Program-made: the position numbers and the translations under genes
Origin: Desulfuromonadaceae bacterium
GTDB taxonomy: Bacteria > Desulfobacterota > Desulfuromonadia > Desulfuromonadales > Syntrophotaleaceae
Direction of reading: 5' to 3'
Assembly: GCA_007134025.1 (NCBI GenBank)
Contig: SLLR01000067.1
Span: 1 to 45,400, forward strand
DNA: 45,400 nt
The notes under the pieces: model-generated
Told to the model about the DNA's origin: nothing
The model's database searches: none
The model's input: only the letters and a program-made list of their open reading frames with translations
Shown here: positions 1 to 4,690 of the stretch, piece after piece
Numbering within the stretch: the stretch's first letter is position 1
Layout of the letters: each line of letters starts with the position of its first letter

Positions 1-384
1 CAAGACAACCGCATCTTCGGTGGTGACCGATTTGTCGATATCGTGCTGGCCGAGGCGGAATCTCTTCCCGAACGGAAACCTGACGTGAATGCCGTGGTTG
101 CTGCCGTGAAAAAGCTTTATGAGTTTTCGGATGACCATCTCGCATCGCGGGGCCGGGAGCGGGAGAGTTGCGAAGCTCGTGGCCTTGCTGCGTGGGCGAC
201 GCTTGAGTTCAGCAGTGGGAAGTTGACAGAGCTCGCCAAGCTTGTGGGACGAGATTCATCGACGCTGACCTGTGCGGTGCGGCGCATTGAAAAACGCCGG
301 GAGAAAGACCCCGGGCTTGTTGATAGAATGGAGCGACTGAGGCGGGAAATAATGAAGTCAAGCTATCAAGTCCTGACCCCGTAG
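1..384 (+). CDS. REP-associated tyrosine (Y1) transposase, C-terminal part
   Basis: The reading frame is open from base 1 to the TAG at 382-384, so this is the 3' part of a gene that begins before the window. The visible ~127 residues hold a short 'GGDRFVDIVL' segment, then a DnaA-like C-terminal helix-turn-helix (about residues 75-120, with 'GRERESCEARGLAAW', 'LTELAKLVGRDSSTLT' and 'AVRRIEKR'). This arrangement is known from REP-associated tyrosine transposases (RAYT, TnpA_REP family), where it follows the catalytic HUH/Y1 domain; that catalytic half is outside the window. The last codons run through a 'caagtcctgacccc' stretch that I recall as typical of the end of such elements in this bacterial group. 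The gene ends directly against truA-derived sequence in the same frame, so it appears to have inserted into truA. Family assignment rests only on the C-terminal domain. Confidence 0.7.
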   Translation, partial: QDNRIFGGDRFVDIVLAEAESLPERKPDVNAVVAAVKKLYEFSDDHLASRGRERESCEARGLAAWATLEFSSGKLTELAKLVGRDSSTLTCAVRRIEKRREKDPGLVDRMERLRREIMKSSYQVLTP

Positions 385-655
385 TTCCCGGTTCGGGATA
401 TCTATTCGATGGAACTTCACCTGCACAACCGGTTGCTGACCATCGATGTCACGGGCAGCGGCTTTTTACGTCACATGGTGCGTACGATGGTAGGAACCCT
501 GGTGGAAATCTGGATAGGGAAAAAGGCCGCCCCGGTCAGTAGATGGGCTGTTGTCGGGCGCCGCAGACAGTGTTCCGGCCCACTGCGCGCCGGCCCAGGG
601 ATTGTGTCTGATGGAAGTCTTTTACGAGCCCCGGCCGAACTGGAAAAAAACTTGA
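385..655 (+). pseudogene. truA: truA remnant (tRNA pseudouridine synthase A), 5' truncated and frameshifted
   Basis: Right after the transposase stop the frame continues as 'VRDIYSMELHLHNRLLTI' and 'TGSGFLRHMVRTMVGTLVE'. This is the conserved C-terminal part of TruA, which makes pseudouridine at tRNA positions 38-40. Translation then leaves frame at a short A-run near 519-525. One A fewer would restore 'GKRPPRSVDGLLSGAADS', and that second frame continues with 'VPAHCAPAQGLCLMEVFYE' to a TGA at 653-655, an intact-looking TruA C-terminus. The gene therefore lacks its N-terminal catalytic half and carries a +1 shift. truA directly before rplM-rpsI is a common bacterial order, so this looks like the native locus broken by the transposase. 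A sequencing error could explain the shift but not the missing 5' part. Confidence 0.75.
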
Positions 656-680
656 CATCGCTGTTTCGTTCGGCTAGTTT
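652..680 (+). promoter_or_regulatory. Promoter for rplM-rpsI
   Basis: A perfect -35 hexamer TTGACA lies at 652-657. It is followed by a 17-bp spacer and a -10-like TAGTTT at 675-680. Transcription would start near 687, giving a leader of about 57 nt before rplM. The -35 overlaps the stop codon of the truA remnant, so the ribosomal operon has its own promoter despite the insertion upstream. Confidence 0.6.
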
Positions 681-743
681 GTTGGCTTCTGTGAGCCCCG
701 TTAACCAAATCACAGTTTTCGACATATAGAAGAGAGGAACTCG

Positions 744-1172
744 ATGAGCACCCAAGTAGCCAAAAAGGCTGAAGTGATCCGAAAATGGTATATCGTTGAC
801 CTTGAAGACAAGGTACTGGGTCGCGTCGCGACCGAAATTGCCCGTGTGTTGCGCGGTAAGCATAAAGCGATTTATTCGCCGAGCGTCGATACCGGCGATT
901 TCGTCATTGTGCTGAATGCCGAAAAGCTCAACCTGAGCGGCAACAAACTGGCCGACAAGAAGTATTACCGGCATTCCGGTTATCCCGGCGGATTGAAGAC
1001 GACCACTGCGGCCGAACTGCTGCAGAAGAAGCCCGAAGAGCTGGTTCGCAAGGCGGTTCGTGGCATGTTGCCCCGCAACACCCTGGGCCGTGACATGCTG
1101 AAAAAACTCAAGGTCTATGCCGGCAGCGATCATCCCCACGCTGCTCAGCAGCCCAAGGAACTGGTCTTTTAA
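744..1172 (+). CDS. rplM: 50S ribosomal protein L13
   Basis: Encodes L13, a large-subunit protein that binds 23S rRNA early in assembly. The 142-residue length matches the family. Conserved segments are visible: '[18 protein letters not shown]' near the N-terminus, '[13 protein letters not shown]' in the middle and '[18 protein letters not shown]' towards the C-terminus. The ATG at 744 has an 'agagaggaa' ribosome site ahead of it. It forms a two-gene operon with rpsI (30-bp gap), as in most bacteria. The likely promoter is at 652-680 and the operon ends at the terminator at 1635-1675. Identification is secure. Confidence 0.98.
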
Positions 1173-1202
1173 AAAAGTTACGTTTTGTATCAGGAGATAA
1201 AG

Positions 1203-1595
1203 ATGGCAGAACAGAAGTTCTACGCGACCGGCAAGAAAAAGACTTCCGTAGCCCGGGTCTGGATCAAGCCCGGAACCGGCGCAATCGTTGTTAATCGTCG
1301 GCCCCTCGATGAGTACTTCGGCCGTGCGACATCCAAGATGATCGTATGCCAACCCCTCGAGCTTACAGAGAACACCGGCAAGTTCGATATCAGCGTCAAC
1401 GTGTGTGGCGGCGGACCTTCCGGTCAGGCCGGAGCAATCAAACACGGCATCACCAAGGCCCTGCTGGCTGCCGATGGCCAATTGCGACCGGTTCTCAAGA
1501 AGGCCGGTTTCATTACTCGTGACAGCCGTATCAAAGAGCGTAAAAAATACGGTCGCAAGGCGGCTCGCGCCAGTTTCCAGTTCTCCAAGCGTTAA
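1203..1595 (+). CDS. rpsI: 30S ribosomal protein S9
   Basis: Encodes S9, a small-subunit protein whose C-terminal tail reaches towards P-site tRNA. The start is taken at ATG 1203 ([20 protein letters not shown]) because 'caggagataa' lies just upstream. An earlier in-frame codon at 1185 would put the ribosome site inside the gene. The 130-residue product has the family's '[19 protein letters not shown]' block, the '[19 protein letters not shown]' block and the typical C-terminal 'QFSKR'. It is cotranscribed with rplM. Confidence 0.98.
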
Positions 1596-1634
1596 TCGGA
1601 TACCGGTCGCATTGCAGCTCTTTTGCAGACTTTC

Positions 1635-1675
1635 GCAAAAGGGGAACCCACGGGTTCCCCTTTTGCGTTTTTGTT
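1635..1675 (+). terminator. Rho-independent terminator after rpsI
   Basis: A 15-bp perfect inverted repeat pairs 1635-1649 (gcaaaaggggaaccc) with 1652-1666 (gggttccccttttgc). A T-rich stretch 'gtttttgtt' follows. It closes the rplM-rpsI operon and separates it from argC. Confidence 0.9.
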
Positions 1676-1721
1676 GTGTCGCGAACAATGGCGGAACAAG
1701 GATTCGCCGACGGAGGATGGC

Positions 1722-2759
1722 ATGATCAAGGTGGCGATTGTCGGAGCCAGTGGGTACACGGGAGTGGAGTTGTTGCGTTTGCTGCTCAACCATCCGCAGG
1801 TGGAGATTACCTGCGTGACCTCCCGTCAGAATGCCGGGACGCCGATCAGTTCGGTATTCCCGTCACTTATGGGACGCAGCGATCTGGTTTTCGACCCGGT
1901 CGATGTGGATCTGATCACCGCCAGAGCCGAACTGGTTTTTACCGCATTGCCGCACAAAGCCGCTATGGAAGTGGTTCCCGACCTGCTGCGTGCGGGGTGT
2001 AAGGTGGTTGATCTGTCTGCGGATTATCGGCTTCGGGATGCGGCGACCTATGAACTTTGGTATCAGCCCCACACCAGCGTTGAACTCCTCTCCGAGGCTG
2101 TCTATGGCCTGCCGGAGCTGTACCGGTCGCAGATTCGGGGAGCACGGCTGGTGGCCAATCCAGGCTGTTATCCTACCAGCGTGGTTCTGGCTCTGGCTCC
2201 CCTGATAGAACAGAACAAGGTCTTTTTGTCGAGCCTGATTATTGACAGCAAGTCCGGCACCAGTGGCGCCGGACGTTCGGCCAGGGTTGGTTCCCTGTTT
2301 TGCGAGGTGAATGAGGGATTCAAGGCCTATGGGGTGGGCAATCACCGGCATACGCCGGAAATCGAGCAGACGCTGGCCGCCCTCGCTGGTGAACCGGTTG
2401 CGGTTTCCTTTACCCCACATCTGCTGCCGGTCAATCGCGGTATTCTGTCCACCTGCTATGCCGGCCTTAGTGATCCGCTTTCGACAGAAGCGCTGGTGGC
2501 ATTCTACCGGGAGCGCTATGCCGACGAACCCTTCGTGCGGATTCATCCGGCGGGAGAATGGCCCAATGTCACCTATGTGCGGGGCAGCAATTACTGCAAT
2601 ATCGGCCTGTTCAGCGACGCTCGCACCGGTCGGGTCATTGTGGTTTCGGTGATTGACAATCTGCTCAAAGGGGCTTCCAGCCAGGCCGTGCAGAATATGA
2701 ACCTGATGCTCGGTCTGGAAGAAACCTGCGGACTTGGCGATCTGCCGCTGTTTCCTTAA
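1722..2759 (+). CDS. argC: N-acetyl-gamma-glutamyl-phosphate reductase
   Basis: Third step of arginine synthesis: NADPH-dependent reduction of N-acetylglutamyl phosphate to the semialdehyde. The start is ATG 1722 ([17 protein letters not shown]), preceded by 'ggagg' at 1712-1716. The frame is open further upstream, but that would run through the terminator hairpin. The 345-residue length is normal. The N-terminal Rossmann motif GASGYTG is clear. The catalytic cysteine sits in '[11 protein letters not shown]' and the conserved histidine region is '[13 protein letters not shown]'. The gene stands alone between the ribosomal operon and the ygiQ-like gene, and no other arg gene is in the window. 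Confidence 0.97.
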
Positions 2760-2899
2760 AAGAGTCATTTTCGCTTTTCAAAGGGCTGCTGCGGCACCTT
2801 TGACAGGACAGGCCTGGCCGATCGAGGCTTTTAGCGTGAGGAATCAAGCTGCTGAAAACGCCCTGCAATAAGGATTTTCTGCCAGTCTGTCGGCAGGAC

Positions 2900-4690
2900 A
2901 TGGAAAGACGTGGCTGGGAACAACTCGACGTACTGTTCGTCACCGGTGATGCTTACGTCGACCATCCGGCTTTCGGAGTTCCTTTGCTGGCCCGTCTGCT
3001 CGAGGCCGAAGGGTTTCGGGTCGGGATTCTGGCCCAGCCCGACTGGCAGGATCCACGGGCCATGCAGGTGATGGGGCGTCCGCGGTTGTTTGCCGCCGTC
3101 GCTTCCGGTGCCATGGACTCCATGGTCAATCACTACACGGCGGCCAGAAAACGCCGCCGCAACGACGCCTATACCCCCGGCGGTCGCAGCGGCGCACGGC
3201 CCAACCGGGCCGTTATCGCCTATACGGGGGCAGTCAAAAACGCTTTCAAGGGGTTGCCGGTGGTCATCGGCGGCATCGAAGCCAGTCTTCGCCGCCTGGC
3301 TCATTACGATTACTGGTCCGATTCGGTTCGGCGCTCACTGCTGGTGGACAGCAAGGCCAACCTGTTGCTTTACGGCATGGCCGAAAGCGCTTTGCTGGAA
3401 TTGACCCGGCGCTTGGCCGTTGACGAACCCATTGAGAACCTTGAGAATATTCCCGGAAGCGCGATGCTGGTCCGTGCTGCCCCGTCGGACGCCCTTGAGC
3501 TGCCCGATTACGATCGGGTTGCCGGCGACAAGAGCGCTTTTGCCGAGGCTTACCGGTTGGCCGCTGAACAAAACAACCCTTATTGCGCCCGTCCTTTGGC
3601 GCAGCGCCATTCAGACCGCTGGGTGCTGGTGAACCCCCCGTCCCGTCCTCTGCAGCAAGGCGCATTGGATCGCCTGTATGCCCTGCCGTTTCAGCGCCGC
3701 CCCCATCCCGCTTATACCGAATCGATTCCCGCATTTGAACAGATTCGGTTTTCCATTACCAGCCATCGAGGGTGTGCCGGCGGCTGCGCCTTTTGTGCCA
3801 TCGCCCAGCATCAGGGTAAACTGATACAGTCCCGTTCAGAGCAATCGCTGGTGGAAGAAGTGCAAAAGCTCGTGGCGCAGGAGGATTTTCGCGGTACCAT
3901 CAGCGATGTGGGCGGCCCCAGCGCCAACATGTACGGAATGCGCTGCGATAATCCGCAGGCGCGTGAAGCTTGCCGGCGGGACGGTTGCCTGTTTCCCGGC
4001 CCCTGTCCCCATCTGCGTGTCGAAGACGGCCGGGTCGCGCAACTGCTGAAACGCTTGCGCAGTCTCGCAGGAGTGCGTCATCTGTTTGTTGCCTCCGGAG
4101 TGCGTCTGGATCTCCTCGAACGGCAGCCGGAATACCGGCGCCGGCTTGTTGGCGAACACGTCAGCGGCCTGCTCAAGGTGGCTCCCGAATCCCTGAGCGA
4201 AGAACTGACCCGTCTCATGCGCAAGCCCGATCCGGAGGTATTTGAAAGGTTTCTCCACCTTTTTCGCACGGAGAGCCGCAATTGTGGTCGTCGACAGACT
4301 GTGGTGCCCTATCTGATCGCGGGGTACCCCGGATCAACCCTGGGACAAACGGTGGATACGGCCCTGGCCTTGTGTCGTCTTGGATTGCGTGTGGAGCAGG
4401 TGCAGGAATTTACCCCGACGCCGGGAACCCTGGCGACCTGTCTGTACCACACTGGTCGCGACCCCTGGACCGGAGAGCAGGTTGCGGTGCCGCTTTCCGA
4501 CCGGGAACGCCGGCTGCAGAAGGCGCTGCTGCTCTTTCATCTTCCCGATAATCGAGCAGCGGTCAGAGAGGCCCTGCGTCGTTGCGGCCGTGAGGCGGAT
4601 GGCGCTCTGCTGCTGGAGGGACCGATCGCCGAGCAAAAGATCACCGGTAAACGGAGGCGGGCGCTTGACAGAGGCCGGGGCAAGGCTTAA
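2900..4690 (+). CDS. YgiQ-family radical SAM protein
   Basis: A member of the YgiQ family (UPF0313), radical S-adenosylmethionine enzymes of undetermined substrate. The [4Fe-4S] motif CAGGCAFC gives Cys292, Cys296 and Cys299, counted from ATG 2900. The N-terminus has the hallmark 'VTGDAYVDHPAFG', followed by 'ILAQPDW', 'SGAMDSMVNHYT' and 'IGGIEASLRRLAHYDYW'. The C-terminal half has 'VAPESLSEELTRLMRKP' and 'PYLIAGYPGSTL'. Codons just before ATG 2900 still read as family sequence (FLPVCRQDM), with no ATG, GTG or TTG between the stop at 2837-2839 and 2900. The true start may therefore be a CTG at 2849 or 2852, behind 'gagga' at 2838-2842. The next gene follows after 53 bp. Confidence 0.9.
   Translation: MERRGWEQLDVLFVTGDAYVDHPAFGVPLLARLLEAEGFRVGILAQPDWQDPRAMQVMGRPRLFAAVASGAMDSMVNHYTAARKRRRNDAYTPGGRSGARPNRAVIAYTGAVKNAFKGLPVVIGGIEASLRRLAHYDYWSDSVRRSLLVDSKANLLLYGMAESALLELTRRLAVDEPIENLENIPGSAMLVRAAPSDALELPDYDRVAGDKSAFAEAYRLAAEQNNPYCARPLAQRHSDRWVLVNPPSRPLQQGALDRLYALPFQRRPHPAYTESIPAFEQIRFSITSHRGCAGGCAFCAIAQHQGKLIQSRSEQSLVEEVQKLVAQEDFRGTISDVGGPSANMYGMRCDNPQAREACRRDGCLFPGPCPHLRVEDGRVAQLLKRLRSLAGVRHLFVASGVRLDLLERQPEYRRRLVGEHVSGLLKVAPESLSEELTRLMRKPDPEVFERFLHLFRTESRNCGRRQTVVPYLIAGYPGSTLGQTVDTALALCRLGLRVEQVQEFTPTPGTLATCLYHTGRDPWTGEQVAVPLSDRERRLQKALLLFHLPDNRAAVREALRRCGREADGALLLEGPIAEQKITGKRRRALDRGRGKA

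Follow-up and report, generated by a model that had tools for sequence, protein, structure and literature searches.

Has this bacterium lost TruA? The question is raised by the left edge of the window, a stretch of 45,400 nucleotides that is the whole of contig C138 in a 2.25 Mb genome (149 contigs, 99% complete) from a Desulfuromonadaceae bacterium, where the end of a transposase gene directly adjoins the remains of truA. The preliminary description took these remains for a truA broken by a REP-associated transposase and expected pseudouridines 38-40 to be missing from tRNAs. It also set them in a native order truA-rplM-rpsI, which the gene order of relatives bears out, with argC next. On the plus strand the truA relic (385-655) is followed by rplM (L13; 744-1172), its native downstream neighbour, for which a genome search found a single place, then by rpsI (S9; 1203-1595) and by argC (1623-2759, the true start probably lying downstream at about 1722). 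A conserved promoter-like element recognised by inspection (652-680; TTGACA, 17 bases, TAGTTT) is kept in relatives and overlaps the stop codon of the relic. Behind it the rplM leader contains an inverted repeat (689-715; CTGTGA...TCACAG) that is largely kept among the compared family genomes and, judged from its sequence, may form a putative L13 regulatory leader; Rfam gave no match in bases 1-3000.

The similarity of 385-655 to the C-terminal part of TruA, on which the preliminary description staked its reading, is present. The region matches PF01416 (PseudoU_synth_1 C-terminal domain; E 3.3e-8, 34 bits, cut-off 23) and positions 154-202 of TIGR00071 (E 1e-8, 35 bits, under the cut-off), and corresponds to the 3' third of the gene, approximately codons 170-250. 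Although it shares this domain with TruA, the relic has neither the N-terminal two thirds nor the catalytic Asp (GRTDA), nor a complete frame. Its frame ends in a stop of its own (TGA 653-655), as had been described, while residues encoded by 512-625 match the intact truA on contig C81 (see below) in a different frame. The break had been assigned to an A-run at about 519-525; that the frame is broken stands, but the A-run, which actually occupies 520-524, is the less economical place for it. One extra base at about 508-515 is, by eye, the most economical reading of the alignment with relatives, because the AGGGAAA that follows then aligns to them without gaps (MAFFT placed the gap about 20 bases further on). 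The second frame, which ends at the 653-655 stop, is further interrupted by a TAG at 515-517. With the N-terminal two thirds missing and the frame broken the relic cannot be an active enzyme, and 385-655 is thus a pseudogene relic, a non-working TruA.

On the other side of the junction, the frame open from base 1 closes at TAG 382-384, the stop reported earlier, and comprises the last 127 codons of a RAYT-like transposase gene (1-384, plus strand), the contig edge falling within the 3' half of the element. A second copy of this part on contig C42 (11790-12175) is 96% identical in nucleotides across exactly 386 bases and then diverges, while a third, a 97-base remnant also on C42, has the same end bases. 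Because the C42 copies stop matching there, 384-386 marks where the element truly ends on the right. The right-end region (359-386, plus strand) is an inverted match to the left end, with GGGTCAGGACTTGATARCTTG at 359-379 on the minus strand. The transposase frame does run on into truA, as was noticed, but this run has no meaning, as it has a one-in-three chance of arising. The transposase gene has at least two copies in the genome; by eye, a second left half on contig C87 (L110 1-260) has a duplicated end motif and adjoins an integrase C-terminal fragment.

The element is putatively Y1/HUH-type and REP-associated-like, and it appears to resemble RAYT/TnpAREP (NF047646) in two respects. The Y1 transposase domain with its HUH motif (HVH) is found in the left half on C81 (MTNHVHL), the window containing only the C-terminal part, and in a near-full-length copy in the relative G002 (91% DNA identity to the window's element part), and inverted ends, imperfect but related, lie on both sides of the gene. 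It differs in carrying an extra DnaA-C-like helix-turn-helix, which lies in the 127 window residues, and in that its sole family score falls under the curated cut-off, coming from the N-terminally incomplete G002 copy (Y1_Tnp and NF047646, 50.9 bits against a cut-off of 80). Moreover the inverted end motif, present at both element ends, occurs in the whole genome at 10 sites when up to 3 mismatches are allowed, of which half coincide with or adjoin element copies, whereas passages in two papers give more than 100 REPs as usual for REP-bearing genomes (PMC2817692, PMC8266576).

The opening question is answered on another contig. A search of the genome for a second truA, as the preliminary description had suggested, found a complete gene on C81 (1488-2240, minus strand) encoding 250 amino acids without stops. 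The product scores 172 bits against the TIGR00071 cut-off of 142.85 and 153 bits against a solved TruA, and with its catalytic Asp motif kept (SSGRTDA / GRTDA) it is a full member of the tRNA pseudouridine(38-40) synthase family. TruA function is therefore predicted to be carried by this copy and, because the genome has an intact truA, loss of pseudouridine 38-40 is not predicted. The gene stands in the order leuC-leuD-leuB-asd-truA-CGGC-dnaJ, and beyond dnaJ the contig continues with about 130 bases common to the sister species, the start of an IS110-like gene, and finally a RAYT element of the same kind, which the contig edge cuts off after its left end and 5' half. The IS110-like transposase 5' fragment (L007 ~240-470, by eye; a single copy in the genome) interrupts a small ORF whose sister-species counterpart is longer.

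That an element inserted into the only truA, with loss of TruA activity, is in our judgement extremely improbable. The element end directly adjoins truA sequence and the frame has decayed further, as such an event would have it, but the C81 copy exceeds the family cut-off and has the neighbours known from the sister species, no truA 5' half was found anywhere in the genome, and what presumably lies to the left of the element is the IS110-like fragment. What survives of the earlier claim is a truA frame broken beside a REP-associated-type transposase; insertion as the cause is unsupported, the 5' half expected across the element was not found, and simple insertion into truA was rejected. Loss of TruA could be maintained only if C81 were a contaminant, but C81 and C138 match adjacent positions of the same sister-species contig with approximately 89-92% DNA likeness.

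This contig belongs to G001, the one other genome of this genus searched (record name Desulfuromonadales bacterium CSSed11_297R1; the CSSed11 label appears in a paper on soda-lake sediments, PMC6146748). It holds leuB-asd-truA-CGGC-dnaJ-rplM-rpsI-argC in one piece, its truA is 94% identical to that of C81, and no truA relic is recognisable between dnaJ and rplM. Given this single-contig order and the half-elements at both contig ends, the most likely arrangement is that a single RAYT copy joins C81 to the window, which would put the relic some 2.3 kb downstream of the intact truA, a pairing that we infer from synteny alone. The assembly lacks about 390 bases from the middle of the element, and the neighbours of C42 and C87 in sister genomes gave no pairing of the element halves, the sister contigs also ending there. 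Around this collapsed middle the genome has a pair of left halves (C81, C87) and a pair of right halves (C138, C42), consistent also with recombination between two RAYT copies, such that the left partner of the relic would be C87 with its integrase fragment and C81 would run into C42. We consider this unlikely, since dnaJ and rplM lie 447 bases apart on one contig in G001 and the C81-C138 join needs no rearrangement. An assembly chimera at the repeat end would fit a window that begins within a repeated element, but the junction falls exactly at the element end, and the relic keeps rplM as its native neighbour and shows decay mutations of its own, which makes a chimera very improbable.

The order asd-truA-rplM-rpsI-argC is found in the family genomes G004, G006, G012, G002, G003, G005 and G007 (the contigs of G006 and G012 having only the asd end), and the relic lies at the site of the sole truA of family members, immediately followed by the conserved promoter-like element of rplM and the leader. 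Among the compared relatives, this genus is the only one in which truA and rplM are separated by genes for a CGGC-domain protein and a small protein with a DnaJ domain (L058, L007); neither gene was detected beside truA in the other relatives. For dnaJ, homologues from other genera do not exceed 64% identity; a search for a donor of truA-CGGC-dnaJ found none, and the best truA identity outside the genus is 68%. In G008 about 2.2 kb separates truA from rplM (L061 1843-4077) and by eye contains an ORF for an FKBP-like peptidyl-prolyl isomerase; there the gap has been filled independently.

Comparisons of the relic with other truA genes set it apart from the intact copy. At the DNA level it scores 115, 101 and 101 bits against truA from three genomes of genus g4, and 70 and 78 bits against the intact truA of its own genus (g1); the kinship with g4 is only moderate because truA of G037, from the unrelated family f5, also scores 103 bits. 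In a 3'-region protein tree of only 88 columns the relic falls within a starred set of six (98/93) together with three g4 and two f3 truA, apart from the intact copy, and clade tests on these columns reject neither relic+g4 (p 0.15) nor relic+g1 (p 0.10). The relic could be a tandem duplicate of the genome's own intact truA that subsequently decayed, with no foreign copy involved. Such an origin agrees with the relic+g1 grouping not being rejected and with full-length tests, under which the intact copy may formally have descended vertically, but g4 truA is nearer to the relic than the intact copy is, and no other family genome has two copies of truA, so that we regard a duplicate as distinctly unlikely.

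For the intact copy, the full-length truA tree contains a starred g2+g4 group (97/93) with g1 outside. Protein identity is higher between g1 and g4 than between g2 and g4 for asd, rplM, rpsI and argC, but not for truA. These comparisons are no more than suggestive of a foreign origin of the intact truA, because a tree holding the family together is not formally rejected (p-AU 0.21).

Taken as a whole, the evidence makes it very probable that 385-655 is the decaying relic of the lineage's old truA, made redundant by a truA-CGGC-dnaJ block that took position behind asd. The old truA would have stood between asd and rplM, as in the family, when a further truA, accompanied by CGGC and dnaJ, was added to the genus behind asd; now redundant, the earlier gene would have begun to decay. 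An IS110-like element and a RAYT element would have landed in the gap, and a deletion would have removed the 5' two thirds of the old gene, leaving its last third abutting the RAYT-like right end, while in the sister species the old truA would have gone entirely. We infer the order of these events, of which the two landings and the deletion may have come in another sequence. That this genus acquired the block horizontally, and that the block took over the operon position of the native truA, whose relic is still readable in one species, we propose tentatively, as a reading that may be correct but toward which we lean slightly less than against. In situ displacement of a gene by a transferred homologue is a described kind of event. 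The truA case resembles it in that the new gene occupies the old operon position and a relic of the old one persists, and differs in that foreign origin is here only suggested, with no donor identified.

For this genome the false claim of a loss of TruA is thereby removed, and the case illustrates that a broken gene at a contig edge needs to be checked against the whole genome. The locus itself is an ordinary pseudogene relic with mobile-element debris, a product of ordinary gene turnover; at most, it would record how a second version took the place of a housekeeping gene while the old copy decayed beside mobile elements.
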